NCBI RefSeq assembly: GCF_012940005.1
Contig: NZ_SPMX01000043.1
Span: forward strand, 1 to 62,725
Reading direction: 5' to 3'
Length of the DNA stretch: 62,725 nt
Source: Candidatus Accumulibacter contiguus
GTDB taxonomy: Bacteria; Pseudomonadota; Gammaproteobacteria; Burkholderiales; Rhodocyclaceae
Made by a program: the position numbers and the translations under genes. Numbering within the stretch: position 1 is the first letter of the stretch; each line of letters starts with the position of its first letter. Positions 6,153 to 26,130 of this stretch are shown in pieces. The notes below the pieces were generated by a model. That model worked only from the letters and a program-made list of their open reading frames with translations. It was not told where the DNA came from and did not search any database.

Positions 6153-6554
6153 ATGCCGCAGATCGTCACTCGTCCGCCGGACGCCGCTATGCCGCGGGTT
6201 CCCGGTTCGCTGGCCGCACACTACGCGCCGACGACACCGCTGCGCCTGCTGCCATCCGCGCGCCTTGTTGAGGTCATCGACCGTCTGCAGAGCACGGGTC
6301 GGCGCTGCGCCGTACTCTGTCACAGTCGGTTGCCCGCCACGCCGGCAGCACACGCCTGGCGCTGCTTGCCGGCCAACCCCCGCGCTTACGCCAGTGCGCT
6401 CTACGCCGCCTTGCGTGAACTGGATCAGGCCGACGCCGAGCTGATCATCGTCGAGGAGATTCCGGAAACGCCGGCCTGGGCGGCGGTCGCCGACCGGCTG
6501 CAGCGCGCGGCAGCCGGTGCCGGCCTGAGCACGGCTGCCGATACGCTCGGCTGA
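6153..6554 (+). pseudogene. Sua5/TsaC-type threonylcarbamoyl-AMP synthase, C-terminal domain fragment
   Basis: The 133-aa product carries the hallmark of the Sua5 C-terminal domain: RVPGSLAAHYAPTTPLRLL near the start and YASALYAALRELDQADAELI followed by VEEIPETPAWAAVADRLQRA towards the end. In full-length Sua5 (about 330 aa) this follows the catalytic YrdC domain, which makes the threonylcarbamoyl-adenylate used for tRNA t6A. No YrdC domain is present: upstream sequence loses homology within about 15 codons and runs into the 65-bp repeat. It is therefore a truncated remnant, and the annotated start is only the first in-frame ATG. The cell presumably has an intact copy elsewhere. Confidence 0.65.
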
Positions 6555-6802
6555 CCAGCCGCCGCCGTCGGTACAGCCCTGCGGTCTGACCGTTCATTTG
6601 CAGAAGGTCATGCTTGCGCAGGTTTCGTGAGCGGCCGGCTGGACTCTTTCTCGATGAGGACTCTTTGCCATGGTCACAATGCCGTCATCCACACACGGGA
6701 TGATCACAGCCGTCGGCTGCAAGCCGACCTCGCCCGTTGCTCTTACGCCAAGCCAGGGGAGTACGCCAGCGTGCGTCCCCAAGACCCAGGAGGATAGTTG
6801 AT

Positions 6803-8236
6803 ATGATGATCAGAAAGCGCTCTCTCGCCATCGCCCTGGTGATGGTCGGCCAGGTCCACGCTGCCGACCTCACCCTGTTCGACAACTTTACGCCCTTGAC
6901 CGGCAACCCGGCCGCCGGCAGCCTGCCGGAAACCGCGCCGTTCAGGCTGTCATCGCCAGACTTCAGCCAGGTCGTCCTGGCCAACCGCACCAACCAGAAC
7001 CGCTTGCTGCCGGGTTCGAACTCCGGTAGCTGGGACATGATTACGGCCAACGAGACCGGCGCCAACGCCGGCCGCTATCTGTTCATGCCCTTCGAGACCG
7101 GGTCCGCCGGTGTACAGCGGGTCGACCTGCGGGACAGCAATTACGACACCCGCACGGTGACCATCGTCGCTCCCGGGACGCAGGGCTTTGCCTCTGGCGA
7201 TGCTTCCCGGTGGACCCCCTGGGGCAGCTATCTGACGGCTGAGGAATCCTGGGGCTCCGGCAGCACCAAGGGCCGTCTGTTCGAAGTGACCAACCCGACC
7301 ACCGCTGGGGTCAATGGCGGCAATCTCGTCCAGCGCCGCATCATTCCACGCGTCTCGCATGAAGGCCTGGCTTTCGACAAGAACAACAACCTGTACTTCA
7401 TCGACGAGTTGAACGGGGGCTCCCTGTACAAGTACGTTTCCGCCAGGCCCGGTGCCACCAGTGGTGACGACTTCTTCGCCAAAGGCCAGACCTTCGTGCT
7501 GAAAGTCGGCGCGGGTGGCCAATCCGAGGGCAACAACGGCCCTGCCATTACTGGCAGTTCACGCTGGGTGGCGATCACCGACGCGAACGGTGCGGCGCTA
7601 GCCGGCATCTCCACGGTGCTTGCCGACGGTACCATTGACGGTCGCGCGACTGCCGATCATGCCGATGTCTTGGGCACCGGCTACAACCGACCAGAGGACC
7701 TGGAGATTCAGACGGTGTCCAGCGGCAAGCAGATCCTCTACTTCACCACCACCGACTCCGACAACGACGGCAACAGCGCCAATGGGCGCGGTCGCATCTA
7801 TTCGCTCGATCTGGCCTCGAACGAAGTCAGGCTGGCCGCCGATAGCAGTAGTCGCGACATGGCCACCGGCCTCGCGGTCGGCGCCACCTGGAGCAATCCG
7901 GACAATCTCGCCATCGATGCCAACGGCAACATCTACGGCATCGAGGACCAGGACGGAGGCAGAGCTGACATCTGGTTCCTGCAGGACGTCGACAGGGATG
8001 GCGTCGCGGAGTCGGTCGGCAAGTGGGCCTCGCTGAGCACCTCCGGCGCCGAGCCGACCGGGCTGTACTTCGACCCCTTCAACGCCAACGTGGCGTACGT
8101 GAACGTCCAGCACCCCAGCAGTGGCAACGACGTGCTGGTCCAGATCACTGCCGTTCCGGAGCCGGAGACTTACAGCATGGTGCTGGCGGGGCTGGGCCTG
8201 CTGGGTGCCACGGCACGACGCCGCAAGTGTGTCTGA
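6803..8236 (+). CDS. PhoX/DUF839-family secreted phosphatase-like protein with PEP-CTERM anchor
   Basis: A 477-aa exported protein. A Sec signal peptide (RKRSLAIALVMVGQVHAA) is followed by PhoX-like sequence: FSQVVLANRTNQNRLLPGS, WTPWGSYLTAEESWGSGS, and HEGLAFDKNNNLYFIDELNG near residue 190. The family is a six-bladed propeller phosphatase using Ca/Fe. The C-terminus, VPEPETYSMVLAGLGLLG then ARRRK, is a textbook PEP-CTERM sorting signal, which targets proteins to the cell envelope or exopolysaccharide via exosortase. The start at 6803 has an aggagg Shine-Dalgarno 9 bases upstream; earlier in-frame starts lack one. It stands alone. Phosphate-ester hydrolysis is inferred from the family; metal ligands were not traced. 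Confidence 0.8.
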   Translation: MMIRKRSLAIALVMVGQVHAADLTLFDNFTPLTGNPAAGSLPETAPFRLSSPDFSQVVLANRTNQNRLLPGSNSGSWDMITANETGANAGRYLFMPFETGSAGVQRVDLRDSNYDTRTVTIVAPGTQGFASGDASRWTPWGSYLTAEESWGSGSTKGRLFEVTNPTTAGVNGGNLVQRRIIPRVSHEGLAFDKNNNLYFIDELNGGSLYKYVSARPGATSGDDFFAKGQTFVLKVGAGGQSEGNNGPAITGSSRWVAITDANGAALAGISTVLADGTIDGRATADHADVLGTGYNRPEDLEIQTVSSGKQILYFTTTDSDNDGNSANGRGRIYSLDLASNEVRLAADSSSRDMATGLAVGATWSNPDNLAIDANGNIYGIEDQDGGRADIWFLQDVDRDGVAESVGKWASLSTSGAEPTGLYFDPFNANVAYVNVQHPSSGNDVLVQITAVPEPETYSMVLAGLGLLGATARRRKCV

Positions 8237-9123
8237 TCGACCTGCCGCAAGAAGAAGGACGGCCGCCGGGCGGTGGTCGTCCTCCCGACGGCAGGCACAC
8301 CAATTTCAACTTGCCGAGCAAAGCCGTTTGCCACTCTCCCTGGCCCTCCCGCGTGTCGCAAGTTGGCGTGCTGGAGACACTCTGGTCAATTCCCACCGCT
8401 GCTTGCCCCACCCTCGGTCGACGCGTGTCGATGGTTTGGGGAAGCCGCCCAGGCCAGTGAACGATCAGCATCATTTGCAGGCGCGGCTGGCCAAGGGCTT
8501 CGAGGCGGGAGCGCTGGCGCTCGACTTCCTTTCGGCGCAAGGTTTCCGGGTTGTCGCTTCTCAGTCGGGTCATGCCTGGCTCATTGTCCAATAAGAGATT
8601 GTCGGAAAACGTACCCTCGCTACAAAATGCAGAGGGTTCCGGTGGAGCAATGCGGCATTTCTGAGTTGCGGCCTGGATTCCATCGTTTTCGTTACGCAAG
8701 GTGTGATCAGGTGAGGCCCGGGCATCGCAACGGCTCCTCGGACCGCACCACTTCGATACCCCCCATGCACCGTGAAGGAGCTTGGTCATGGGCTCGGCGC
8801 CAGCAACGGCGGGGCTTGGTGGCAGGTCGCGGCAGCGGCTCGACATACCACCGGAGGCCGGTCAGAGGGCAACGACGGCTGGCGCCTGAGCCACATGCGG
8901 TGGCCCCGGAGCCGGCGAGGAGGTGGTGGCCCGGCTCGCCGATGCGGCGGCCATCCGCTCGAGCCCCCCGGCACGAGAATTGCTACCGAGGACCGTTGAC
9001 ACTCAAATGGTGGCCGGAGACACTGGCCAAGGAGCCAGTGGATTTCCAGTGCTTCTGTCTGCCGTGCCTGGACGTCGGCGGCAGCCACCGAAACGATTTC
9101 GACATTTTTCAAGGAGAAAACCA
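8237..9123. other. 887-bp gap without a supported gene
   Basis: Open frames exist on both strands, the longest from 8273 into the start of hppA, but none resembles a known family and their composition looks like out-of-frame GC-rich sequence. A weak sigma-70-like pair (TTGTCG at 8599-8604, TACAAA at 8621-8626, 16-bp spacer) could drive hppA with a long leader. I see no tRNA, repeat or IS end here. Confidence 0.4.
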
Positions 9124-11633
9124 ATGACCTTCAGTTACTCTGCGTTGGCGCCGCCCTGGCGCTCTCTGGCCCGTCGCCTGCTGCTGGCGTTCATTATTGC
9201 CATCGGCGTCGCTGCCTTGCCAGTCCTCGCGGCCACGGAGCACGTCTCCGAGGCCAATCTCGTTCTACCCGACCTTGGCGATGTCTCTCTGGTGACTTTC
9301 CTCGGTGGGATCTCCGGATGGACCCTGCTCTCCTGGGGACTGCTGGTTTCCCTCGGCGGCCTTGTCTTCGGCGCCGTCATCTACCTGCAGATTCAGCGCC
9401 TGCCGGTACATCGTTCGATGGCCGAAGTCAGTGAACTGATCTACGAAACCTGCAAGACCTACATGCTCACGCAGGGCAAGTTCCTGCTGATCCTGGAAGC
9501 GTTCACCGCGGTGATCATGATCGGCTACTTCTACTTCGTCCAGGAGCTTCCCGTCCCCGACGTGGCGATGATCCTGGCCTTCTCCCTGGTCGGCATCGCC
9601 GGCTCGTTCGGGGTGGCCTGGTTCGGCATCCGCATCAATACCCTGGCCAACAGCCGCACGGCCTTCGCCTCGCTGGCCGCCAAGCCTTATCCGGTCTACG
9701 CCATACCGATCAAGTCGGGAATCTCGATCGGCATGCTGTTGATCTCGACCGAACTGCTGATCATGCTCTGCATCATGCTGTTCGTGCCGGCGGCGCTGGC
9801 CGGCAAGTGCTTCATCGGCTTTGCCATCGGCGAATCGCTGGGCGCCGCGGCACTGCGCATCGCCGGTGGCATCTTCACGAAGATCGCCGACATCGGTTCC
9901 GATCTGATGAAGATCGAATTCGGCATCCAGGAGGACGATGCGCGCAACCCTGGGGTGATCGCCGACTGTGCCGGCGACAACGCCGGCGACTCGGTGGGCC
10001 CGACGGCTGACGGCTTCGAGACCTACGGTGTCACCGGCGTGGCGCTGATCAGCTTCATCATGCTGGCGGTACCCGAAGCCGCCGTCCAGGTGCAGTTACT
10101 GGTCTGGCTGTTTGTCATGCGGGTGATGATGATCGTCGCCTCGGGCATCTCGTATCTCGGCAATCAGATGGTCGCGCGGCGCCGCTACGGCGACAAGCAG
10201 CGCTTCAATTTCGAAGCGCCGCTGACCTCGCTGGTGTGGATCACGTCGGTCGTTTCCCTGGTCATCACCTTCATCGTCTCGTATCTGCTGATGGGGAACT
10301 TTGCCCTCGACGGGAAGGCATACGCCAACCTCTGGTGGCAACTTTCGCTGATCATCACCCTCGGCACGCTCGCCGGCGCGATCATTCCCGAGATCGTCAA
10401 AGTGTTCACGTCGACCAACTCGCGGCACGTACGCGAAGTGGTCACGGCGTCGGAGGCAGGCGGCGCCAGCCTCAACATCCTATCCGGTATCGTCGCCGGC
10501 TACTTCTCCGCGTTCTGGATCGGCGTCATCATCGTCGGGCTGATGTCCGGCGCGTATGTCGTGTCGCAGTTCGACCTGACGGCGGTGATCAATCCGGACG
10601 ACGCCAAGGCAGCAATGATGGCCGCGGTCTTCTCGTTCGGTCTGGTCGCTTCGGCTTCCTGGGGATGGGTCCGGTAACGATCGCGGTAGACAGCTACGGG
10701 CCGGTCACCGACAACGCGCAGTCGGTATACGAACTGTCGATGATCGAACAGATGCCCGGCATCCAGACGGAAGTCAAGAGGGACTTCGGTTTCGATCTCG
10801 ACTTTCGTTCCGCGAAGTTCCTGCTCGAAGAGAACGACGGCGCCGGCAATACCTTCAAGGCAACCGCCAAGCCGGTGCTGATCGGCACCGCGGTGGTCGG
10901 CGCGACGACCATGGTTTTTTCCATCGTCATGCTGCTCACCGCCGGCCTGACCGAGAACCTGGACAAGCTGTCGCTGCTGCACCCGCCCTTCCTGCTCGGA
11001 CTGATCGCCGGCGGGGCAACCATCTTCTGGTTCTCGGGCGCCAGCACGCAGGCCGTTTCGACGGGCGCCTACCGTGCGGTCGAGTTCATCAGCACACACA
11101 TCCGCCTCGATGAGGTGGTCAAGGCGTCGCAGAAAGACAGCAAGAAGGTCGTCGAGATCTGCACCATCTACGCGCAGAAAGGCATGTTCAACATCTTCAT
11201 GGCGGTGTTCTTCGGCACCCTGGCGTGCGCCTTCATCGAACCCTTCTTCTTCATCGGCTACCTGATTTCGCTAGCGATCATCGGTCTTTACCAGGCCGTT
11301 TTCATGGCCAACGCCGGTGGCGCATGGGATAATGCGAAGAAGATCGTGGAAACGGAAATGCACGCCAAGGGAACGGATCTGCACAATGCCTCGGTGGTTG
11401 GCGATACCGTCGGTGACCCGTTCAAGGACACCGCCTCGGTCGCCATGAACCCGATCATCAAGTTCACGACGCTGTTCGGCTTGCTGGCGGTCGAGATGGC
11501 GGTCGGACTGCAGGCGCAGGGCCAGCAGGTAATCGTCTATGCCCTGGCGGCGCTGTTCCTGGCCGTGAACCTGGTCTTCGTGTTCCGCAGCTTTTACGGG
11601 ATGCGAATCGTCGCCAAGAAGGAGAATGGATAG
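9124..11633 (+). CDS. hppA: Membrane-bound proton-pumping pyrophosphatase, broken by one frameshift
   Basis: This is a membrane pyrophosphatase that couples PPi hydrolysis to proton pumping. The first frame (9124-10677) has a leader, many membrane helices and the PPi-binding acidic block GVIADCAGDNAGDSVGPTAD. The second frame resumes at FGFLGMGPVTIAVDSYGPV and holds the later motifs NAGGAWDNAKKIVE and DTVGDPFKDT. One base is missing near 10648-10651; restoring it joins the frames into a protein of about 836 aa. The break could be a sequencing error or a real mutation. The segment GNTFKATAKP has Lys where potassium-dependent enzymes have Ala, so a K+-independent pump is predicted. The start has an aaggaga Shine-Dalgarno. 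It appears monocistronic. Confidence 0.9.
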
Positions 11634-14990: not shown

Positions 14991-15050
14991 TAGGAAATCC
15001 AGCGGTACCATCGAGAGTATATGAGCCTTCATCAAGGGGCGTCAATCTCG
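14986..15050. repeat. 65-bp interspersed repeat, copy B
   Basis: This matches copy A at 6055-6119 with five mismatches. It forms the boundary between the FtsX-permease scrap and the caspase-NACHT gene. As at copy A, it borders a truncated gene, which suggests a recombination or insertion boundary. Confidence 0.75.
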
Positions 15051-15089
15051 ACAAATTTCCTGCCCGCGGCTGCCAACCCAGGAGACGAC

Positions 15090-18000
15090 ATGAGCCACCG
15101 CTTCGAGAACGCCTGTGCGCTGCTGATCGCCGTGGACCAGAACAGGGAAGCCAGCGCCGCCCTGCCGGCCGTGGCCGCCGACGCGCGCGCCCTGCGCGAT
15201 GTCCTGGTGCATCCGGCGCGCTGCGGCTACGCGCCGGACAAGCTTCGCCTGCTGATCGGCGCCGAGAGCAGCCGGCAAGGGGTGTTCGACGCGCTCGACT
15301 GGCTGGCCGACGAACTGGCGGCGATTCCGGGCGGCGACTCGACGGCCATCCTCTACTTCAGCGGCCACGGCCACGTCGAGGGCGACGAACACTATCTGAT
15401 CCCCTACGACCTCAACCTGCGCCGAATGCGCAGCAGCGCGATCCGCGCGACCGACTTTGCCGACGCCGTCGCGCAACTGACGCCGCGCCGCCTGCTCGTC
15501 GTTCTCGATTGCTGTCACGCGGCCGGCATGGCGGTCAAGCAGGCGGCGCCGGCGCCATTCGCCAGCGCGGCGATTCCGCCGGCGCTCTTCCGGACCGAAG
15601 CCAAATCGCTGGCTGCCGGTCGCCTCGCCAGTGGCGCCGGGCGTGCCGTGCTCAGTTCGTGCCAGCCCGGCGAAAGCTCCTACCTGCGCGCCGACGGCCG
15701 CATGAGCATTTTCACCTTTCACCTGATCGAAGCGCTGACCGGACACGCGCAGCCGTCCGGCGGGGCACCCGAGGTCCTGGTTTCCGACCTGGCGAGCTAC
15801 CTTCAGCGCTCGGTCCGGCAAAGCGCGCGGGCGCAGCACGGCGCCGAGCAGAACCCCGTCCCGCAGTTGACCGGCAACTTCCCGGTCGCGCTGGTGCTCG
15901 GCGGCGACGGGCTCGGCAAGGGGCAGGCGGCGCCCGATCCCCTGGCGCCCCTGCCGCCAGCGGTTTCCTGGCGGGCCAGCGTCAGCGGTTCGGGCGCCAT
16001 TGCTCAGGCCGGCGGCATCGCCCTCGGCGAAGGTGCGACCCAGGTCGGCGGCGACTGCACCATCGTCAGCGGCACGCAGATCGTCCACAACTACTACCGC
16101 GCCGCCGCCGGCAGCGCCCCGAGCAAGGAAGACATCGCCCGGCAGGTCGCCGGCTACCTGCGCTGGCTGCAGGAGCGCACGCAGAGCATCGAGCTGCGCG
16201 GCATCGAACGAGCGGGCGGCGCGGCGGTTGTCGTGTTGCCGATCGAGACCGCCTACGTGCCGCTGCGCGCCCGCTCGCTGCCGCGTTTCGGCGACGCACC
16301 GCAGCGGATCGGCAAGCCGGGCAAGGCCGGACGCCAGCGCACGGTCGAGCTCGAGGATGGCGCTGCTGCCGACGAGCCTTCCGGCCGCGAAGCCGACATC
16401 GCCCTGAACGAGGTCCTCGGCCTCGGCCATCGTCTGGCCATCATCGGCGGACCCGGTTGCGGCAAGACGACGGTCTTGCTGCACATGGCCTGGGCGCTGG
16501 CCTCTGCGCTGCTCGAAGGGCAGCCCGAACTGGCGCGCTCGCGCCTCGGCCTGACGATGGCCGCCGACGAACTACCGCTGCCGATCCTCGTTCCGCTGGC
16601 CTCGTTCGCGCGCTACCGTCGTCACTTGCCGGCGGCGGCGGAAGCGCGCGAGAAGACCCTGGCGCATTTCATTTCCTGGCATCTGATCAGCAGGGAAGCC
16701 CCCTTCGACCTGCCGGCCGACTTCTTCGTGCGCCTGCTCAAAGAAGGACGAAACGTCCTGCTGCTGCTCGATGGACTCGACGAAGTGGCGAACGAGGGCG
16801 AGCGCGCCGAGGTCCGCCAGTCGGTGGAGAATCTCGTCGCCGGCCGCGACGCGATGCGCGTCGTCGTCACCTGCCGCACGATCGCCTACCGCAGTGGCAG
16901 CACGGCACTCGGGGCCGATTTTCGCGAGATCCGGGTGCAGGCGCTCGAGCACGCGCAGCACATCGCGCCGATGGTCCGTCAGGCCTACGCCTGCATCCAC
17001 CCGCAGGACCCCGTGCGCCGCCTCGAGCGCGCCGACGACCTGCTGACCGGAATCCGGCGGCTCGAAGCGGATCGCCGCCGGCGCCTGGGCGAGAACGCCG
17101 CCGCGCTGGTCGACAGCCCGCTGATGGTGCGCCTGCTGTTGATCGTCCACCTCAACAACCGCGCACTGCCCGAGCAGCGTGCCGACCTCTTCGACAAGGC
17201 GATCAACGCGCTGCTGCAGGTCGATTACGGGTACGACGAGAGCGACAAACGCGAACTGTCCGCCGACTGGACGCTGTACCGCGACATGGCGCAGCAGCTC
17301 GCTTTCCGGATGCACCAGCAGGGCGCCGACCAGGGGCGCGAGATCGAGGAGCCGGAGCTGCGCGCCATCCTGTGCGCCGAAGCCGAGTTTCGGCCGCGCC
17401 TCGACGATTTCGTCCGCCATGCGCGGCAACGCGGCAGCGTGCTCGAAGAGCGCGACGGCGCTTATCGCTTTCTGCATCTCGCCTTGCAGGAGTTCCTCGT
17501 CGCCCGCTACCTGAGCGAGGTCATCGGGCGCGACAGCCGCGAAGCGATGCTCTCCTTCCTCGCCGAACGACTCGAGGACCCCTGGTGGCGCGAGCCGATC
17601 CTGCTGCTTGCCGGCTATCAGGCAACGCACGCCGCCCGCTCGGCGCGCGAGTTCCTGCGCGCCCTGACCGCAAGCGGCAGCGTCGCCGACGCGCAGTTCT
17701 CGGCTGCCGAACTGGCCGCCACGGCGGCGATCGAGTGGCGGGAGAGCGGCGAGCCGCTGCGCGCCGAGTGCGCGGGCCGCATCGTCGGTCTGTTGGGCGA
17801 CGCCGACGCGTTGGCGACATCGCGACCGACGGTGCGCGCGCGTGCCGGCGACCGGCTGGCGCAGATCGGCGACTCGCGCTTCGACCCGCAGCGTTTCTAT
17901 CTGCCGGCCGACGAAATGCTGGGTTTTGTGCGCATTGCCGCCGACCCAGCGTTCATGATCGGCACGCGGCGGCAGGACGCGGCGCGCGTAGCCAAGATCA

Positions 18001-18704
18001 TCGGGAGGAAGGTTGACGACGACGAGATCAACGACACGCCAACACCGACCCCTGAGTTCTACATCGCGCGTTACCCGGTCACCGTCGCGCAGTTCCGGGC
18101 CTTCATCGAAGCCACAGGATTGGCGATCGGCAATGGTGACGCCCTCGCCGATGTGGACAGCCGACCGGTGCGCCGGGTGAGTTGGCACGAGGCGCTGGCC
18201 TGGTGCGACTGGCTCCACGAGATGCTCGAGACTATGCCGGAAGTCGAAGGTAGTCCGATCGCCAAGCTGGTGCGCGAGAACGGTTGGCAAGTTGCCTTGC
18301 CAAGCGAACTCGAGTGGGAGAAGGCGGCGCGAGGCAACTTGAGCGGAGCGGTGTTTCCCTGGGGAAACGATGTCGATCCGAATCTGGCGAACTACGCTGA
18401 TTCTCAGATCCACGATAGCTCAGTCGTCGGCTGCTTCACGGGCAATGCTTTCGGTCTCTTCGACATGGTCGGCAATGTCCGGGAATGGACCCGCAGCCTC
18501 TACCTGGACTATCCGTACGATCCTGCCGACCCGAAGCGTGAGAACCTGAACGCCGACGACGGTGCCGAACGGGTCGTGCGGGGCGGCGCGTGGTTCTTTC
18601 ATCGAGCCGGTGCCCGCTGCACCTCTCGCCACAGGCTTCGCCTTGGCGATCGATTTGTCAATCTCGGTTTTCGGGTGGTGTTGCGTTCCTCCCCTGTTTC
18701 TTGA
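15090..18704 (+). CDS. Caspase-NACHT-FGE/C-lectin protein, DGR target 1
   Basis: A 1204-aa immune-type sensor. The N-terminal caspase-like peptidase (about 1-270) has the catalytic His in YFSGHGH (H93) and Cys in LDCCHAAG (C142). A Gly/Ala repeat linker, SGSGAIAQAGG (about 299-325), follows. Then comes a NACHT NTPase with Walker A GGPGCGKTT (about 453) and Walker B LLLLDGLDEV (about 560). The C-terminal formylglycine-enzyme-like (C-type lectin fold) domain starts near 945 and ends in the variable repeat (about 1161-1201). The catalytic cysteines of true FGEs are absent, so this domain is a binding module. The ATG at 15090 has an aggag Shine-Dalgarno and matches the N-terminus of the paralogue at 23299; an in-frame ATG at 15021 adds 23 unrelated residues inside the repeat. 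Ligand-triggered NTPase oligomerisation activating the caspase is inferred. Confidence 0.9.
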   Translation: MSHRFENACALLIAVDQNREASAALPAVAADARALRDVLVHPARCGYAPDKLRLLIGAESSRQGVFDALDWLADELAAIPGGDSTAILYFSGHGHVEGDEHYLIPYDLNLRRMRSSAIRATDFADAVAQLTPRRLLVVLDCCHAAGMAVKQAAPAPFASAAIPPALFRTEAKSLAAGRLASGAGRAVLSSCQPGESSYLRADGRMSIFTFHLIEALTGHAQPSGGAPEVLVSDLASYLQRSVRQSARAQHGAEQNPVPQLTGNFPVALVLGGDGLGKGQAAPDPLAPLPPAVSWRASVSGSGAIAQAGGIALGEGATQVGGDCTIVSGTQIVHNYYRAAAGSAPSKEDIARQVAGYLRWLQERTQSIELRGIERAGGAAVVVLPIETAYVPLRARSLPRFGDAPQRIGKPGKAGRQRTVELEDGAAADEPSGREADIALNEVLGLGHRLAIIGGPGCGKTTVLLHMAWALASALLEGQPELARSRLGLTMAADELPLPILVPLASFARYRRHLPAAAEAREKTLAHFISWHLISREAPFDLPADFFVRLLKEGRNVLLLLDGLDEVANEGERAEVRQSVENLVAGRDAMRVVVTCRTIAYRSGSTALGADFREIRVQALEHAQHIAPMVRQAYACIHPQDPVRRLERADDLLTGIRRLEADRRRRLGENAAALVDSPLMVRLLLIVHLNNRALPEQRADLFDKAINALLQVDYGYDESDKRELSADWTLYRDMAQQLAFRMHQQGADQGREIEEPELRAILCAEAEFRPRLDDFVRHARQRGSVLEERDGAYRFLHLALQEFLVARYLSEVIGRDSREAMLSFLAERLEDPWWREPILLLAGYQATHAARSAREFLRALTASGSVADAQFSAAELAATAAIEWRESGEPLRAECAGRIVGLLGDADALATSRPTVRARAGDRLAQIGDSRFDPQRFYLPADEMLGFVRIAADPAFMIGTRRQDAARVAKIIGRKVDDDEINDTPTPTPEFYIARYPVTVAQFRAFIEATGLAIGNGDALADVDSRPVRRVSWHEALAWCDWLHEMLETMPEVEGSPIAKLVRENGWQVALPSELEWEKAARGNLSGAVFPWGNDVDPNLANYADSQIHDSSVVGCFTGNAFGLFDMVGNVREWTRSLYLDYPYDPADPKRENLNADDGAERVVRGGAWFFHRAGARCTSRHRLRLGDRFVNLGFRVVLRSSPVS
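18572..18693 (+). repeat. DGR variable repeat VR1
   Basis: This is the 3' end of target 1, aligned without gaps to the template repeat at 18862-18983. Over the 26 variable codons, 17 of about 25 differences fall on template adenines (24 adenines present). Examples are template AAC to TTC, AAT to CTT and GAC to GTC. The remaining eight differences are not at adenines, more than in VR2, so VR1 has drifted or was last copied from a slightly different template. The invariant 3' end (ggttttcgggtggtgttgcg) is the likely initiation-of-homing site; the template has A in place of the last-but-two G. Confidence 0.9.
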
Positions 18705-18763
18705 CTCCGTCCTCCGTTCCCTTTGGCCTCTGTCACTCCGGGATATCCGACTCTGGAGGGGGT

Positions 18764-18783
18764 GCGGGGGAAACTTCCCCCGC
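18764..18783 (+). promoter_or_regulatory. DGR target-site hairpin after VR1
   Basis: An 8-bp GC-rich stem closes an AACT tetraloop (or a 9-bp stem with a 2-base loop), about 70 bases after VR1. The identical 20-mer occurs after VR2 and not after the template. Bordetella-phage-type DGRs require a hairpin of the same geometry downstream of the VR for retrohoming, so this marks the gene as recipient rather than donor. Confidence 0.8.
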
Positions 18784-18861
18784 CGCGCGCAGCGCGGCAC
18801 GCGATTTTTTTTGCTATCCTTCGCCTGCCGGGTGGTGACACTCGGTCAGGCAGTCTGGAGA

Positions 18862-18983
18862 GGTCGTGCGGGGCGGCTCGTGGAACAATCATCGAGACAA
18901 CGCCCGCTGCGCCTACCGCAACAGGAATCACCCGGGCAATCGGAATGACAATAGCGGTTTTCGGGTGGTGTTACGTTCTTCCC
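18862..18983 (+). ncRNA. DGR template repeat (TR)
   Basis: This non-coding donor copy aligns base for base with VR1 and VR2. Its core is rich in AAC/AAT codon-like triplets, the usual design that lets adenine mutagenesis reach the most amino acids. It should be transcribed and reverse-transcribed with errors at A. Upstream, the sequence up to about 18861 has no homology to the targets. The flank to 19268 contains no gene I recognise. No hairpin like those after the VRs follows it, as expected for a donor. Confidence 0.9.
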
Positions 18984-19268
18984 ACGTTCGTCCGCCCCTT
19001 CTTCTGGTTCCGCCGCAGGGCGGGACGGCGCGCCGGCACCCCCGTGCCGGTCGTGCTCCGGAAATGCCGGTCGATTCGCGCGAGCGGCTTGGCCGGCCGA
19101 GGCGAAGGAAGAAGAACAGCGCCAGACCGGTCTGGTCCGCGCGCAGGCCGCAAGGCAGGGCGACAGCGGGGCAATCGCCCGCGCCGGGCGCATAGCGAAG
19201 CACGGGAACGGCCAGGCCGAAGCGCCCGCCGTTCCCGCCCCGGCTCCCGCCACCGGGATGGCATCGGG

Positions 19269-19445
19269 TCAGGAGAACTCCTCGGCCTCGCGACCCGAGA
19301 CACCGGGCCTGCCGGACGCCGTTTGCCGAATCCAGCCGCCGAGCAGCCGTCCGACCTGGGCGACGAGGCGGCTGACGTGCTCGTATTGGCCGCTGCTCAG
19401 CCAATCCCATTGCCGGGCCAGCCGCAAGTACAGTCGCAGCTTGTC
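19269..19445 (-). pseudogene. Avd-like DGR accessory protein, C-terminal fragment
   Basis: On the minus strand the last 58 codons read [20 protein letters not shown], then [20 protein letters not shown], the two C-terminal helices of the Avd/23S-IVP four-helix bundle that partners DGR reverse transcriptases. The upstream part of this open frame is only the complement of the reverse transcriptase. The first half of Avd (about 60 residues) is therefore missing. The fragment breaks off at 19443-19451, precisely where the RT homology begins on the other strand. Without its first two helices it is unlikely to fold. Confidence 0.7.
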
Positions 19446-20324
19446 TTCATTCACGAGCCGAAGCGCCGCAAGATCAGTGCCGCGCCGTTTCGCGACCGCG
19501 TCGTCCATCACGCCCTGTGCCAAGTGATCGAGCCGCTGTTCGAGGCGAGCTTCATCGCCGACAGCTACGCCAATCGCCGCGGCAAGGGAACGCACCGGGC
19601 GCTGGACCGGCTGCAGCACCATGCGGGACGTTATCGCTACGTGCTGCGCGCCGATGTCGTGCAGCATTTCCCGTCGCTCGACCACGATCTCCTGCGCGGC
19701 AAGCTGGCGCGCGTGGTCGACGATTCGGATCTGCTGTGGCTGGCCGGCCTCATCCTCGACAGCGGCGCCGGCGTGCTGACGGACGAGTACCGGCCGGTGT
19801 ACTTCCCCGGCGACGACCTGCTCGCCGCCTGCCGCCCACGCGGCCTGCCGATCGGCAATCTGACTTCGCAGTTCTGGTCGAACGTCTATCTCAACGACTT
19901 CGACTGGTTCGTGCAGCGCCAACTGGGCTGCGGCGCCTACCTGCGCTACGTCGACGACTTCGCGCTGTTCGGCGACGACCGGAAAACGCTGTGGCAATGG
20001 AAGGAGGCGCTGATCGCCCGCCTGGCACAGGAGCGGCTGACGATCCACGCCAGCGAGGCGCAGGTGCTGCCGACGCGCTGCGGCATCCCCTGGCTCGGCT
20101 TCGTCGTGTACCCGACGCATCGTCTGCTCAAGCGGCGCAACGCGGTCAACTTCACGCGCCGGCTGAGCGGCAATCTCGACGCATATCGCGCGGGGTCGAT
20201 CTCCTTCGCCGAACTCGACGCCAGCGTGCGCGGCTGGATCAATCACGTCCGCTACGCCGACACCTGGGGCTTGCGCAAGCATCTCTTCGCGGCGCATCCG
20301 ATCCCGGGACGCCGCGCCAAATAG
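19443..20324 (+). pseudogene. DGR reverse transcriptase, N-terminally truncated
   Basis: From codon 19443 onward the frame is clearly a DGR-type [22 protein letters not shown], then [13 protein letters not shown], then [14 protein letters not shown]. The first catalytic aspartate is in [13 protein letters not shown]. The DGR-specific form of motif 4 is [10 protein letters not shown], and the active site is [14 protein letters not shown]. The C-terminal thumb helices are intact. Compared with Bordetella phage bRT, about 60-65 N-terminal residues are missing. The open frame extends upstream to 18723 but runs through the TR and antisense Avd, and has no credible start or RT-like sequence there. 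The polymerase is probably inactive unless complemented in trans. Confidence 0.85.
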
Positions 20325-20337
20325 CCGCCCGGCGCGG

Positions 20338-20357
20338 CGGGGGAAGTTTCCCCCGCA
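20338..20357 (-). promoter_or_regulatory. DGR target-site hairpin after VR2
   Basis: On the minus strand this is the same 20-base hairpin as at 18764-18783: an 8-bp stem with an AACT loop, about 70 bases after VR2. The flanking sequence between VR and hairpin is also about 90% identical at the two sites, so the two recipient ends share a common origin. Confidence 0.8.
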
Positions 20358-20415
20358 CCCCCTCCAGAGTCGGAGTACCCGGAGTGACAGAGGCCGGAGG
20401 GAGCAGAGGACAGAG

Positions 20416-23187
20416 TCAAGGAACAGGGGGAGAACGCAACACCACCCGAAAACCGCCCGCGGCATCCCGAGTGCCCGGGACAAGCCTGAGACGGAAGGCG
20501 CAGCGGGCGCCGTCTCGAGGAAGGTTCCACGAGCCGCCCCGCACGACCCGGAAGACATCGTCCGAGGTATCACGGTCTTCACGTTTCAGATCCCTGGCAT
20601 CGTAGGGGTAGACGAAAGCGGGCTGCCGCCAATCGGTGCCCCACAGACTGCGCGTCCACTCCCAGACGTTGCCCGCCATGTCCAGGCAGCCGATAGGGCT
20701 GCGCCCGGCCTCGAAGCAGCCCGGCGTGCTGGTCGCACCGACGCTCATGTCGGCATTCACCCATTCGGGCTCCCAGTCGTCACCCCAGGGCCAGGCGCGC
20801 TGTGGTTGCGGGTTCTTCCGCCGTGCCGGGTCGGCAAGGGCAAGGCCCTGGCCAACCGTGGTGTACTGCGCACTGACGGGAAGCTCGACGCCGCCACGCG
20901 CCGCTTTCTCCCACTCGGCTTCCGACGGCAGGGCGACCGACCAGCCGGCCGGCAGCCGCTCGCGCCAGCGCTCGCCTAGCCAGGCACAGAAGGCCAGGGC
21001 GTCGTGCCAGCTCACCGTTGCCACCGGCCGGTTTGGCGGATCGCGCAAGGCCTGTGGATCGGGCGCTTCGCCGCCGGTGCTGGCGACGAACTGCGCGAAC
21101 TGCGCCACCGTGACCGGCGATTCGGCGATCCAGTAGTCGTAGTCCAGCGTTTCGTTGCGGTGCAGCGGCGCTTTGCTGTCTCCTTCGTCGCCCATCCAGA
21201 AAGCGCCGCGCGGCACGAAGGCGAAGCGCAGGTGGTCGACGTCGAGCAGTTCGTGCCGCGGGTCGCCGAGTGCGGCGAGCAGGTCGCCGGCCAGCGCGCG
21301 TTCGCGCGCCGGCAGACGGCGGCTGCGCAACAGCCGGCGCTGCCAGTCGCGCACGCGCCGGCGCTTGCTTTCGTGGCGCGGCTGCAGGTCGGGGTCGGCG
21401 GCCGACAGGCCGGTTTCGTGCAGCGCCTGGCCGGCGAGAAGCGCGCCCCACTGCGTTTCGCTGTCGGGTTCGGGCGCTTCGGGGTCCGAATCGACCCCCT
21501 CGCCGCACAGCGCCTCGACCAAATCCCAGATGGCACTCGGGGTGTTCCTGGCGCTCGCCGCGGCGAGCAGAAGAACCTCGCGCCAGCGGTCGGGGTCGGT
21601 TGTCGCCAGTCGGCTCAATTCGTCGGGGAACTTGAAGCGCGCCAGGTGGCAGGCGGCCAGATACTCCTGGAAGGAACGGTGCGGGAACTGGTACCAGCCC
21701 TCACCGTGCGCACTGAGCAGCCCGGCGCGGTCGCGCAGGTACTCCTCGAGGCGCATGAGCCGGGCGTCCGGCCGGTCGCGCGAGGCGGCACGCAGCGCCG
21801 CCGTCAGCGCGTCGGCGTGGATGTCGGCCGTGCCGGTCAGCGAGGGCTGCGCCAGGTGTACCTCGTAGGCCAGGCGGTCGATTTCGCGCCGAATGCTCTC
21901 GCGGCTGGCGCCCAGCCACTCGCCGAGGCAGGGTTCGTCCACCCGCTGGCCGCGGCGGTCGAAGCGCGGCTTGTGACGTTCCCACTCGTCGAGCAGCATA
22001 TCGACCGACTCGGCGTACAGCTTCTCGCGGCTTTCCGGCAGCGCGCCGCCGCCGCGCGTCTGCAGCCGCGCCATCAGGGTCAGCAGCAGCGGGCGGGCAG
22101 CGAGTTCGCTCAATTGCTTGCCCATGGTGGCGCGCTTGAGCCTCGCCGCGCCGTCGGCCGCCTGCGACGCGCTCAGGCGCGCCAGGTCGTTCGCCATGTG
22201 CGCGTACCAGGAGTCGATGAAGCGCTCGATCTGGCCGCGCGTGAAGGGCAGCAGTTCGCGTGCAGCGAATCCTTCGAGTTTCCAGTCCTGGCGCTGGTAG
22301 GCGTAGGTACGGCTAGTGACGAGGAAGCGGCACTTGCCGTACATCCCGGCGAAGGCCTGAACGGCCTGCTTGACCTGGGCGCGCCGGCTTTCGGCGTCGG
22401 GAACTTCGTCGAGTCCGTCGAGCAGGACCAGCCCGCCGCGGCCGAGCAGTTCGCGATGCAGGGGGTCGTCGTAGGGCCGCAGTTGCTCGGGCCACTGGCC
22501 GACGATGAAGCGCCACAGCGTGCCGGCGTCGACCACGGCGTCGGCCGGCAGGCTGGCGGCGAAATCGCGCAGCACGACGCACACCGGCAACAGGGCGCCG
22601 TGCGTCCAGCGTTGCCGCTGCGGCTTGAAGTCGGGTTCACGCGGAATCGGCTGGCGGAGAAGCTTCAGATTGGCGGTGGCCGAATGCTGCAGTTCGCCAG
22701 CCAGGCACAAGGCGACGAAGTTGAGGAAGGTCGTCTTGCCGCTCCCCGGTCCGCCCATCAGCACCAGCGAACGCTCGCGGTCGAGCGCTTCGAGCGCCGA
22801 CAGGCGTTCGCTCTGGCGCGGCTCGCCGTCGCCGGGCTGGCGGGCCGCGCCCGCGGCGGCCGGCAGGAAGCGGCTGTCGTCGCTTGCCGTGGTGAGCAGC
22901 GCAGTGTAGACCGCCGGCAGTTGCACCATCTTGTCGTCGCTGACGAAGAGCGGCAGCCGGTTGGCCTGCGTGACCAGCCAGCCCAGATAAGCCTGGCGCA
23001 GTTCGGCGGCGGCGGCGTCTGACGGCGCTACTTGGTAGAAATTGTTGTGGATGTCGCCTCGGACGAGTTGGCCACCCTTGCCCACAGCTGTGGCTCCGTT
23101 CCCTTGCGCGATGGCGCCGCCTCCGTCGACTGCGGCTTGCGCTCGACGGCGCGGCTTTTTCGCTGGGGGAAGGTGTTCGCTGTTCAT
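20416..23187 (-). CDS. NACHT-FGE/C-lectin protein, DGR target 2
   Basis: A 923-aa sensor related to target 1 but without a caspase. Residues 20-45 carry the shared linker GGGAIAQGNGATAVGKGG. The NACHT NTPase has Walker A MGGPGSGKTT (145-153) and Walker B LVLLDGLDEV (about 253-262), then helical repeats including FPHRSFQEYLAACHL. The C-terminal FGE/C-lectin domain (about 680-923) has VPRGAFWMGDEGDSKAPLHR, LPSEAEWEKAARGG and MAGNVWEWTRSLW, ending in VR2. True FGE cysteines are missing. It is convergent with target 1 across the DGR cassette and divergent from the caspase-CHAT gene (111-bp gap). Lacking an effector domain, it may signal by binding a partner that shares the linker, for example the caspase-CHAT protein. 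That pairing is inference. Confidence 0.9.
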   Translation of the reverse strand: MNSEHLPPAKKPRRRAQAAVDGGGAIAQGNGATAVGKGGQLVRGDIHNNFYQVAPSDAAAAELRQAYLGWLVTQANRLPLFVSDDKMVQLPAVYTALLTTASDDSRFLPAAAGAARQPGDGEPRQSERLSALEALDRERSLVLMGGPGSGKTTFLNFVALCLAGELQHSATANLKLLRQPIPREPDFKPQRQRWTHGALLPVCVVLRDFAASLPADAVVDAGTLWRFIVGQWPEQLRPYDDPLHRELLGRGGLVLLDGLDEVPDAESRRAQVKQAVQAFAGMYGKCRFLVTSRTYAYQRQDWKLEGFAARELLPFTRGQIERFIDSWYAHMANDLARLSASQAADGAARLKRATMGKQLSELAARPLLLTLMARLQTRGGGALPESREKLYAESVDMLLDEWERHKPRFDRRGQRVDEPCLGEWLGASRESIRREIDRLAYEVHLAQPSLTGTADIHADALTAALRAASRDRPDARLMRLEEYLRDRAGLLSAHGEGWYQFPHRSFQEYLAACHLARFKFPDELSRLATTDPDRWREVLLLAAASARNTPSAIWDLVEALCGEGVDSDPEAPEPDSETQWGALLAGQALHETGLSAADPDLQPRHESKRRRVRDWQRRLLRSRRLPARERALAGDLLAALGDPRHELLDVDHLRFAFVPRGAFWMGDEGDSKAPLHRNETLDYDYWIAESPVTVAQFAQFVASTGGEAPDPQALRDPPNRPVATVSWHDALAFCAWLGERWRERLPAGWSVALPSEAEWEKAARGGVELPVSAQYTTVGQGLALADPARRKNPQPQRAWPWGDDWEPEWVNADMSVGATSTPGCFEAGRSPIGCLDMAGNVWEWTRSLWGTDWRQPAFVYPYDARDLKREDRDTSDDVFRVVRGGSWNLPRDGARCAFRLRLVPGTRDAAGGFRVVLRSPPVP
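20428..20548 (-). repeat. DGR variable repeat VR2
   Basis: This is the 3' end of target 2 on the minus strand. Against the template it shows about 20 differences in the variable core, of which 17 are at template adenines and only three elsewhere. This is a cleaner adenine-specific signature than VR1, suggesting a more recent retrohoming event from this template. The framing GGTCGTGCGGGGCGGC and the ggttttcgggtggtgttgcg end are invariant. Confidence 0.9.
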
Positions 23188-23298: not shown

Positions 23299-26130
23299 AT
23301 GAGCCGTCGTTTCAAAAATGCCTACGCGCTGCTGATTGCCGTCGACCGGAACCGGGAAGCCGCGGCGGCGCTGCCCGCCGTCGCCGCCGACGCGCGCGCG
23401 CTGTACGACGTGCTGGTGCACCCGCAGCGCTGCGCCTACCGGCCCGACAAGGTCCGCCTGCTGACCGGCGCCGAGAGCAGCCGGCAAGGGGTGTTCGACG
23501 GGCTCGACTGGCTTGCCGAGTGCGTGGCCGCCGACGACGACGCGACGGCGATCGTCTATTTCAGCGGCCACGGCCACGAGCAGGACGGCGAGTATTTCCT
23601 GATTCCTTACGATCTCGACCTGAAACAGGTCGGCCAAAGCGCGGTGGCGGCCACCACCTTCGCGACCAGGATTGCCAAGCTGGCGCCGCGCCGCCTGCTG
23701 GTGCTGCTCGATTGTTGCCACGCCGGCGGGATGGCGGTCAAGGACACGCTGGCCGCCACGGCACTGCACAGCGCGGCGATTCCGCCGACGCTCTTCCCGC
23801 CCGCCGGGAAGTCGCTCGCGACGCCGCTCGCCCAGGGCGAGGGCCGCGCCGTGCTCAGTTCGTGCCGGCCGGGGCAGCTCTCGTATCTGCGCGCCGATGG
23901 CCGCATGAGCATCTTCACCTATCACCTGATCGAGGCGCTGAGTGGGCACGCGCGGCCGGCCGGCGGCGCAACCGAGGTGCTGGTTTCCGACCTGATCAGT
24001 CACCTCGAGCGCCGCGTGCCGGCCAGCGCCCGCGCCGACCATGGGGCCGAGCAAACGCCGTGGCCGGAGTTGCGCGGCAATTTTCCGGTGGCGCTGCTGC
24101 TCGGCGGAGAGGGACTCGCCACCGGACAGCGGCCGCCCGACCCGCTGGCGCTGCCGGCCTCCGGGTCTGTTTCCTATCGCGCCAAACTGCGCGGCAGCGG
24201 CGCCATCGCCCAGGGCGACGGAGCCACCGCGCTCGGCAAGGGCGCCATCCTCACCGGCGGCCAGCCGCGCCGCCGGGGCGACACGGAGACGATGCACCAG
24301 GCGCCGGCCACGGTGGACGACCCCGGCCCGGCGCGCGAGCAGTCGTCGTCCAGGAGATTCCGCGCCCTCTTTGCCGAGCGTGGTTTCGCTTTTCTCGACG
24401 ATGGCGACGGGCGCGATGTCTTTCGACTGCGCGGCGCGACCGGGCGGGCCGGCAAAGGCATCGCCGACGGGTCGCCCGACGAGGCGCCGCGGGAGAAGGC
24501 ACAGCCGAGCGCGGCGGCCGGCAAGCTGGGTTTCGTCCTAGAAGGTCCGGCGGCCAGGGGCCTGACGCTGCGCGCCGAAGGAATCGCCTTGCTGGTCTTC
24601 AAGCAGTTCGCGGCGGACGACGTGGCCGGGGCGATCGTCGAAGGCGAGAAACTCAAGCCGCTGCTGGCCGGCGAACAGACGCTGGCGATCAGCGTGACGC
24701 CCGAAGACGGGCTGGCGATCGACGGCCCGCATGCAGGCCAGGCACAGTTCAAGGATGGCCAGCTGCGGCAGGCGCAGCCCTTTGCCCTGCGGGCGCTGGC
24801 CGGCTCGGCCGGCGAATACGGCGTGCATGTCGAGTTCCACCACGCCGGCGCGCGGCTCTACGAGTTCCGCCTGCCGATCATCGTGCTGCCGCCCGGCAAG
24901 GCCTTGCCGGCGGTGGTTTCGCCGACGATCATCGACCTGGACGGATTGCGGGCGGTGCAGGACTGCGCCGAGGTCGGCAAGCCGCCGCTGCGTCGCTTGC
25001 GGCTGAAAGCCTGCTTTGAAAACAACCTCCTGTACCTCGACCTGGAGGACTACGTCGACGGAGAATTCAGCAACTCGGTCGGGGGTTTCACGTCATCGAT
25101 CGACCGCGCCCGGCTGGACGCGCTGCGCGCGCAACTCGCGACGACCCTGGATGCCAATCTCTACGAGACTTCCTCCGTGTGGTACGCCTTCGACGGCTCG
25201 GACACCACGGCGCCAGGCTGCCGGCGCGCGCTGACGAGCGTCGCCAGGCAGTTCGCACAGGCCGGTGGCGTGCTCTATCGGGCCCTGCGCGAGGATGCGA
25301 CATTTCGCAGCGTCCTCGACTACATCGAACGTCAGGCCGAACCGGGAACGCGGCTGACCATCGTCACCCGCGACGTATCGCTGCCGTGGGAATTGCTGTA
25401 CCCGCAGCGCTTCGACGCGGACGCGCCCGACGACTGGCCACTGCAGCCGGAGCTGTTCTGGGGCACGCGCTTCGCGCTCGAAACGCAATTCCTCGGCGAA
25501 GGCGACTACGCTTCGCTGCTGAAGGCCCGGCGGCAGGCGAAGGCCACAGCCAGCCTCAACCTCAACCCGACGATCACCGTCGACGCCGATCAGCCGCGCC
25601 AGGTGCACGACGCCCTGGCCGCCGCGTTGCGGGCGCAGGGCCCGACAGTCGAGGTCAACGCCGATTGCCGGAATATTCGCGATGTCGTTGTCCGGGCAAG
25701 AACCGACGCGACGCTGATCTATCTCTTCTGCCACGGCAGCCCGCCGTCCTCACCCGCGGCGCCGCGGCCGGAAACGCTCGAACTCGACCATGGCTGCTCG
25801 GTCTCGGTCGATCAGATCGACGAGCAACGCGTCTACCGGAATGCGCCGGTGATTTTTCTCAATGCCTGTAGTGCCGGCGCCTTCTCGCCCTTGTCCTTCA
25901 CCGGCTTCCTGCGCGCCTTCCGCCGGAAGAAGGCACTCGGCCTGATTGCCCCGAGTTTTCCGGTGCCGACCTGTTTCGCGGCCCGTTTCGGCGCCGATGT
26001 CGTCGACGCCTGCTTCCACAGCCCGGGCAGCAGTCTCGCCGCTCTGCTGCAAGGGTTCCGGCAGCAGCACATGCGGCGCGGCAATCCGCTGCCGCTGCTC
26101 TATGCCGTGCAGTGTCAGCTCGATCTGTAG
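23299..26130 (+). CDS. Caspase-CHAT dual-protease effector
   Basis: A 943-aa protein with two caspase-clan protease domains. The N-terminal caspase-like domain resembles that of target 1 closely (starts MSRRFKNAYALLIAVDRN) and has the His in YFSGHGHE (about 91) and Cys in LLDCCHAGG (about 139). Residues 298-320 hold the shared linker GSGAIAQGDGATALGKG. The C-terminal third is a CHAT domain with His in YLFCHGS (about 812) and Cys in LNACSAGAF (about 857). A middle region without recognised motifs separates them. CHAT and caspase proteases act as suicide effectors in several bacterial immune systems. It has no variable repeat. The start has a ggaggaaaaag Shine-Dalgarno. The metallophosphoesterase gene follows after 15 bases. 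Confidence 0.85.
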   Translation: MSRRFKNAYALLIAVDRNREAAAALPAVAADARALYDVLVHPQRCAYRPDKVRLLTGAESSRQGVFDGLDWLAECVAADDDATAIVYFSGHGHEQDGEYFLIPYDLDLKQVGQSAVAATTFATRIAKLAPRRLLVLLDCCHAGGMAVKDTLAATALHSAAIPPTLFPPAGKSLATPLAQGEGRAVLSSCRPGQLSYLRADGRMSIFTYHLIEALSGHARPAGGATEVLVSDLISHLERRVPASARADHGAEQTPWPELRGNFPVALLLGGEGLATGQRPPDPLALPASGSVSYRAKLRGSGAIAQGDGATALGKGAILTGGQPRRRGDTETMHQAPATVDDPGPAREQSSSRRFRALFAERGFAFLDDGDGRDVFRLRGATGRAGKGIADGSPDEAPREKAQPSAAAGKLGFVLEGPAARGLTLRAEGIALLVFKQFAADDVAGAIVEGEKLKPLLAGEQTLAISVTPEDGLAIDGPHAGQAQFKDGQLRQAQPFALRALAGSAGEYGVHVEFHHAGARLYEFRLPIIVLPPGKALPAVVSPTIIDLDGLRAVQDCAEVGKPPLRRLRLKACFENNLLYLDLEDYVDGEFSNSVGGFTSSIDRARLDALRAQLATTLDANLYETSSVWYAFDGSDTTAPGCRRALTSVARQFAQAGGVLYRALREDATFRSVLDYIERQAEPGTRLTIVTRDVSLPWELLYPQRFDADAPDDWPLQPELFWGTRFALETQFLGEGDYASLLKARRQAKATASLNLNPTITVDADQPRQVHDALAAALRAQGPTVEVNADCRNIRDVVVRARTDATLIYLFCHGSPPSSPAAPRPETLELDHGCSVSVDQIDEQRVYRNAPVIFLNACSAGAFSPLSFTGFLRAFRRKKALGLIAPSFPVPTCFAARFGADVVDACFHSPGSSLAALLQGFRQQHMRRGNPLPLLYAVQCQLDL

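Follow-up and report, generated by a model that had tools for sequence, protein, structure and literature searches.

DGRs have been linked to conflict systems (Kaur et al. 2020, PMC7159879), and several described systems resemble the locus analysed here. In its available sections, the study of Dore et al. (2024, PMC10907252) describes DGRs with two CLec-STAND targets, degenerate loci, and activity in trans, and names Accumulibacter among organisms with several DGRs. DGR 3 and DGR 6 of Thiohalocapsa PB-PSB1 (clade 5D) have, like the locus in the window (the whole 62,725-nucleotide stretch of DNA that was analysed), two CLec targets with NACHT/nSTAND NTPases; some of them carry a peptidase or a TIR effector, and the genome has several DGRs as well as degenerate loci (PMC10907252). 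The likeness to clade 5D is one of description rather than of placement on the tree of that study, and loss in Thiohalocapsa was attributed to transposons and MITE-like arrays, whereas the window shows a blunt 504-bp deletion (PMC10907252). No discussion of a convergent layout with antisense avd was found in the available text of PMC10907252. Multi-VR DGRs and VRs opposite to the TR strand were reported by Schillinger et al. (2012, PMC3521204); their example from Pseudogulbenkiania sp. NH8B has, like the window, one TR with VRs on both strands, but it has four VRs with the opposite-strand ones farther off, whereas in the window the core is flanked by a single target on either side. Bordetella phage BPP-1 shares with the window the TR and VR, the adenine bias, the RT, and Avd, but has one target where the window has two and an antisense avd (PMC3240598, PMC12875486). 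BPP-1 and the window also share a downstream hairpin with a GC-rich 8-bp stem and a 4-nt loop; the phage-type hairpin lies 4–34 bp from the VR with a GRNA loop, whereas the hairpin in the window lies at 70 nt with an AACT loop (PMC3240598). Papers on cryo-EM of Avd with RT were sought in the literature and none was found.

The window is contig C78 of a 5.02 Mb genome of the genus Candidatus Accumulibacter in 167 contigs (98.7% complete). Judged by its sequence, the locus is a cellular DGR with the layout target1 > TR > <avd RT> <target2, and is composed as follows:

15021–18704, plus strand: target 1, caspase (Peptidase_C14)-NACHT-FGE-sulfatase, an open frame of 1227 aa (Pfam and translation)
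18572–18693, plus strand: VR1, at the 3′ end of target 1 (gapless alignment to the TR)
18764–18783, plus strand: hairpin GCGGGGGA-AACT-TCCCCCGC, 70 nt behind VR1
18862–18983, plus strand: TR, the template repeat, with an IMH*-like end
18984–19268, plus strand: spacer behind the TR, intact (8-locus alignment, consensus fold of 7)
19269–19445, minus strand: avd fragment, antisense to the RT (homology at 19317–19445, then a tail to the stop at 19269)
19444–19446, no strand: blunt deletion junction, 504 bp missing by comparison with G005
19446–20324, plus strand: RT fragment, N-terminal 60–78 residues missing, LPIGNLTSQ and YVDD retained
20337–20356, minus strand: second copy of the GCGGGGGA-AACT-TCCCCCGC hairpin, behind VR2
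20427–20548, minus strand: VR2, at the 3′ end of target 2 (gapless alignment to the TR)
20416–23187, minus strand: target 2, NACHT-FGE-sulfatase, 923 aa (Pfam), with no recognised N-terminal effector
23299–26130, plus strand: neighbouring caspase gene (Peptidase_C14, Pfam), divergent from target 2

Overall, this is a decayed DGR with two convergent immune-type targets, and its kind is already known: publications describe DGRs with several NACHT-FGE targets, targets on opposite strands, and degenerate loci. The reading we favour, and consider likely, is that of a two-target DGR with a 504-bp deletion that is inactive in cis, and whose VR2 was rewritten later than its VR1.

Alignment reproduced the gapless match of one TR to both VR1 and VR2, and between 18872 and 18960 the share of differences that fall at template adenines (17 of 25 for VR1, 17 of 20 for VR2) was identical to that of the original prediction. 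When substitutions were tabulated by template base over all 122 positions, they were concentrated at A and not spread evenly: VR1 was changed at 18/25 adenines and 9/97 other sites (Fisher p 8e-10), VR2 at 18/25 and 4/97 (Fisher p 2e-12). Replacement bases at the adenine sites were mixed (8 T, 5 C, and 5 G in VR1; 7 C, 6 G, and 5 T in VR2), and 23 of the 25 template adenines fall in the first or second codon position of the VR1 frame. Comparison with the orthologous repeats of another genome of the genus, G005, gave the same picture, with 17/23 adenine sites and 10/97 others differing in VR1, and 15/23 and 9/97 in VR2. At the IMH end, both VRs have CCCCTG, versus CCCACG at the TR. These counts support what had been proposed, namely adenine-directed diversification of the DGR type, acting from one template on two convergent NACHT-FGE proteins. 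Further copies of the TR repeat in the assembly (E ≤ 0.01) were limited to partial matches on C57 (98 bases, 73%) and C68 (26 bases), contigs that carry other DGRs, and a TR-derived pattern had no matches in viral contigs.

Pfam confirmed that both targets combine NACHT and FGE-sulfatase domains and that one of them has a caspase domain; in both, the VR lies at the 3′ end of a gene with a C-type-lectin-like (FGE-sulfatase) domain. An AlphaFold model of the target 2 FGE domain (pLDDT 78.6, pTM 0.83) matched FGE enzymes and the Treponema DGR protein TvpA (2y3c) at modest TM-scores of about 0.5–0.6. By Pfam, target 1 (caspase-NACHT-FGE) fits an effector-NTPase-sensor order, and target 2 is NACHT-FGE with no recognised effector. 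The only PADLOC matches were the caspase of target 1 (E 4.8e-7) and PDC-S68 in target 2 (E 7.7e-4). The FGE domain would be the putative sensor of each protein, and both targets may bind ligands or act in immunity. Candidates for bacterial anticipatory immunity include the cellular DGRs that rewrite sensors of the NACHT type, the function of the targets being putative. A possible partner effector for target 2 is the caspase gene at 23299–26130. Six-frame translation of the window contains three copies of a GSGAIAQGxGATALGxGA-like motif: in target 1 (P0001, aa 325) between caspase and NACHT, in target 2 (P0002, aa 24) near the N-terminus, and in the neighbouring caspase protein (P0005, 23299–26130, aa 301) behind the caspase. 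The motif may connect a sensor that lacks an effector to a separate caspase through a homotypic link. At the DNA level, target 1 (15090–15948) and the neighbour (23299–24151) have paralogous caspase domains, with about 71–84% identity depending on the stretch.

The further suggestion that the retroelement appears to diversify its targets now was not supported, since one deletion cuts both the RT and avd, and drift between the TR and the VRs is seen at non-adenine sites. The RT frame has 533 residues, the first ~240 of which are not RT. Homology begins at 19446, equivalent to residue 79 of the stop-to-stop RT frame on contig C132 of the same genome; if the likely Met of the G005 RT is taken as the start, the loss amounts to about 62 residues. 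The RT keeps its motifs and groups with RTs of DGR loci but lacks its N-terminal 60–78 residues. Avd is found in most, not all, DGRs; in the window it is a C-terminal antisense fragment only, of about 43 residues, which corresponds to residues 71–113 of the 114-aa Avd of C132 and to positions 64–106 of 107 in bAvd (PF22296), with a score of 29.2 bits that lies under the Pfam cut-off of 40. The RT and avd homologies begin at adjacent bases on opposite strands. The orthologous locus in G005 is 91.7% and 92.7% identical on either side of the break. There, 504 bp separate the two bases that are neighbours in the window, and the sequences flanking this segment are identical over at least 50 bases both to the left and to the right. 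The join in the window is blunt, no more than one base being shared. Relative to G005, this alignment indicates, a 504-bp deletion fuses the interior of avd to the interior of the RT, and the element is probably silent in cis as a result. Because the deletion cut both machinery genes, the targets are probably no longer rewritten from this locus. G005 is itself an imperfect reference because its RT at the orthologous locus carries a frameshift near the C-terminus.

Two other explanations bear directly on this break. The deletion could be an artefact of assembly or belong to a minority variant, most cells having a whole cassette. The genome is indeed in 167 contigs, and Thiohalocapsa populations, in the available part of PMC10907252, contain intact alongside damaged variants. 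The junction, however, is blunt and shares no more than one base, so no repeat explains a collapse; other truncated loci exist, two of them (L090, L094) in the single-contig genome G005; and the drift between TR and VRs is a separate sign of inactivity. We regard this explanation as unlikely. Among the matches listed for 27 other genomes of the genus, all start or stop at the junction except C136 of G008, whose alignment crosses it because that contig has its own, different avd-RT fusion (L092). A 100-base junction probe found no continuous match among the roughly seven candidates scored for each of 120 other genomes of the family, and the junction sequence had no matches in viral contigs. Alternatively, the truncated RT could still work as a polymerase, translation beginning at a GTG or TTG codon in frame (19377, 19386) and Avd coming from another source. 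Such codons exist, and RVT_1 is almost whole (profile positions 8–203 of 205). Against this, seven of eight other RTs have about 60 more well-aligned residues at the front, the eighth (L088) being itself truncated; in-frame ATG is absent from 19200 to the start of RT homology; the Avd of the window is only a fragment; and inactivation of Avd in a reconstituted BPP-1 system cut repair to ~1e-9, according to the available part of PMC12875486. A working polymerase is accordingly very unlikely. The frame of the RT fragment is still open, with no clear decay seen. Its dN/dS against G005 was 0.315, a value drawn from only 25 changes, and values in four pairs without the window were 0.10–0.24.

Across the genus, the analysis covered 19 such loci (the window, L016, L017, and L079–L094), of which 10 have a whole or nearly whole RT and a whole avd (L016, L079–L084, L086, L087, L091) and nine have an incomplete RT, avd, or both (the window, L017, L085, L088, L089, L090, L092, L093, L094). 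The 5′ ends of RT and avd were lost together in four: the window, L088, L090, and L092. The locus on C132 (L016) shares with the window the order and orientations of VR1, TR, antisense avd, RT, and convergent VR2, but its core is whole, its targets are TIR-nSTAND1-FGE and TIR-FGE, and its RT is 66% identical. The same genome has a damaged locus on C130 (L017, 8037–10180) with a whole antisense avd and an RT present only from residue 233; no adenine-biased TR-VR pair was found there. It also has two DGRs of a different RT lineage (33–35% identity), L018 on C68 and L019 on C57, each with one TR between two same-strand VRs. L083 (G012:C9) and L091 (G004:C45), from different species, have identical TR and VRs, which suggests recent transfer or a mixed assembly.

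Alignment showed the spacer behind the TR to be conserved across eight loci, one of them short, and it presumably belongs to the TR RNA. The consensus fold of seven loci has 79 pairs, eight of them with compensatory changes, and covariation makes a small contribution (−3.04 of −103.8 kcal/mol) in a calculation without a shuffle control. The window contains two exact copies of the 20-base hairpin pattern, each VR being followed by one of them, and the pattern is not among the two best hairpins behind the TR. In the window and L079–L085, the GCGGGGGA hairpin ranked in the top two downstream of 15 of 16 VRs and of 0 of 8 TRs; L016, L088, L092, and L094 have other hairpins instead. Fold z-scores were unremarkable (−0.42, −1.32), so the case for the hairpin is one of conservation and placement. 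It is a candidate for target recognition, or could belong to a terminator. As expected of a DGR, the IMH end and the downstream hairpin, whose function is putative, are present at the VRs and absent at the TR. The cis elements for homing therefore look intact in sequence, with the proteins missing.

This retention makes diversification in trans conceivable: the RT and Avd of C132 would use the TR RNA of the window, the deletion having removed a redundant copy. C132 does carry a whole RT and avd; the window retains its TR, spacer, hairpins, and the ends of both VRs; and activity in trans was inferred for Thiohalocapsa in the available text of PMC10907252. The C132 and window RTs, however, are only ~66% identical and their TRs differ, and the TR-VR differences at non-adenine sites are ones that recent rewriting should, by its mechanism, erase. 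Supply in trans is thus improbable.

Each rewriting should reset the non-adenine bases of a VR to those of the template. In G005, TR, VR1, and VR2 are identical at all 97 non-adenine sites; in the window, the TR differs from VR1 at nine of these and from VR2 at four, and the two VRs differ from each other at 13. Set against the identical repeats of G005, these differences indicate that rewriting has probably lapsed in the window. The window total (13/194) exceeds that of loci counted whole (12/1336, p 2e-6; p = 8.6e-5 once the stale middle VR of G005 is included). The 1336 sites are from L016, L079 (two VRs), L080, L081, L082, L083, and L084, the last counted whole despite RT homology that extends only to residue 311, ~80 bases before the contig end. 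Excluded were L091 (repeats the same as L083), the G005 middle VR (10/104), L086 (1/70), the other DGR lineage (L018 and L019: 2/101, 1/101, 3/103, and 1/103), and the broken loci L085 (1/106, 1/106), L088 (4/112, 5/112), L094 (2/105, 5/105), L090 (15/102, poorly aligned), and L092 (27/110, 3/110). Other broken loci, taken without L090 and the 27/110 of L092, had 21/756 non-adenine differences versus 12/1336 in intact loci (p 0.0015), or 48/866 with the 27/110 included. L085 has a broken core yet clean repeats. In one survey, seen in part, non-adenine differences occurred in 44.6% of VRs, with an average of 1.47% (PMC6642488); the window, at 7.4% and 3.3% of 122 bases, lies above that average.

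Individual sites give some order to these changes. At 18934 and 18954, the window TR and VR2 have a base in common that is absent from the window VR1 and from the TR, VR1, and VR2 of G005; the simplest reading is that the TR mutated in the line of the window and that VR2, but not VR1, would then have been rewritten. At 18898, 18940, and 18955, all three repeats of the window differ from the TR, VR1, and VR2 of G005. At two of these sites the middle VR of G005 carries the window base, so the changes there probably originated and spread in G005. That middle VR, of a third target in G005, differs at eight of the 97 non-adenine sites. The third target of L079 (G005) is an open frame of 1090 aa at 6476–9745, between the RT and the target 2 orthologue, and its VR (9616–9743; 10/104 non-adenine differences) is a stale target beside a nearly whole core. 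Because a VR can be stale beside such a core, the non-adenine drift of the window may predate the deletion. The reconstructed order of events under the favoured reading is as follows: in the intact state, RT together with Avd would have made cDNA from the RNA of TR and spacer, erring at adenines. This cDNA would then have replaced VR1 or VR2 by means of the IMH end and downstream hairpin, with altered residues in the FGE (C-type lectin-like) domains of two NACHT sensors as the outcome. In the most recent rewriting, VR2 would have been replaced later than VR1. The 504-bp deletion would account for the present inactivity in cis; the sensor genes would now stay open, with their variable ends frozen and slowly drifting. 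The number of TR-VR differences at non-adenine sites offers a rough clock for the last rewriting, and the loci form a natural series of cassettes: whole (C132, and G005 nearly so), broken and clean (L085), and broken and drifted (the window).

The convergent layout had been called less usual. This holds in part: the layout was found in nine of the best 80 of at least 508 RT-relative stretches in named genomes, all nine fall among 22 loci with antisense avd, and opposite-strand VRs have been known since 2012 (PMC3521204, seen in part). In these best 80 of at least 508, avd was antisense and upstream of the RT in 22, sense in 51, and otherwise in seven, with TR-VR pairs found in 19/22, 38/51, and 1/7, respectively. 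L137, whose avd, TR, and VR are opposite to the RT strand, belongs to neither avd class and is labelled ‘none’ in the tree. Same- and opposite-strand VRs on one TR occurred in 9/22 antisense and 0/51 sense loci of the same best 80 of at least 508 (p 5e-6, a statistic that ignores shared descent). Any opposite-strand TR-VR pair occurred in 10/22 and 1/51, again among the best 80 of at least 508; L122 (sense avd) has a single VR opposite to the TR strand, and in L105 an opposite-strand VR was found and a same-strand VR was not. An RT tree built from 87 rows placed the antisense loci in one clade (support 100/94) of 29 rows, comprising 27 antisense loci (five added from the window and G genomes) and two with no avd found. 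The clade spans Chloroflexota, Acidobacteriota, and Pseudomonadota. Because the antisense loci fall in one RT clade, the association of antisense avd with convergent targets is largely one of lineage.

No description of antisense avd with a convergent second target was found in a literature search whose matches were mostly off-topic, nor in the available parts of PMC10907252, PMC3521204, PMC10053308, PMC6642488, and PMC8144416. The layout may already be in print among the 122 cassette patterns of PMC6642488, which, in the part seen, counted 28.6% multi-VR DGRs. This recurrent convergent lineage deserves study of its own, and a single RT clade with antisense avd and convergent targets is a group suited to tests of retrohoming orientation. 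One could go further and propose that the convergent two-target cassette with antisense avd represents a separate DGR lineage, its geometry dictating two diversification speeds, and that loss of RT and Avd freezes a successful sensor pair. According to the available part of PMC12875486, the BPP-1 DGR tested in E. coli retrohomes preferentially to targets that run in the same direction as replication, so one convergent target would always be fast and the other slow. The later rewriting of VR2 in the window is in favour, as is the VR2 orthologue of G005, which would be co-directional with replication if the start lies at dnaA. Against it, VR1 and VR2 of G005 are equally clean and the co-directional middle VR is stale; the GC skew of the window (0.0015) is uninformative on replication direction. 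The proposal is, on balance, a long shot. At eight named loci from outside Accumulibacter that have a VR on the opposite strand (L097, L102, L103, L105, L107, L108, L119, and L152), a tested set of 14 target proteins, which leaves out the first targets of L102 (a frame whose end is unlike an FGE domain) and L119, had FGE in 14/14 and NACHT or nSTAND1 in 11/14, with TIR or EAD8 in some.
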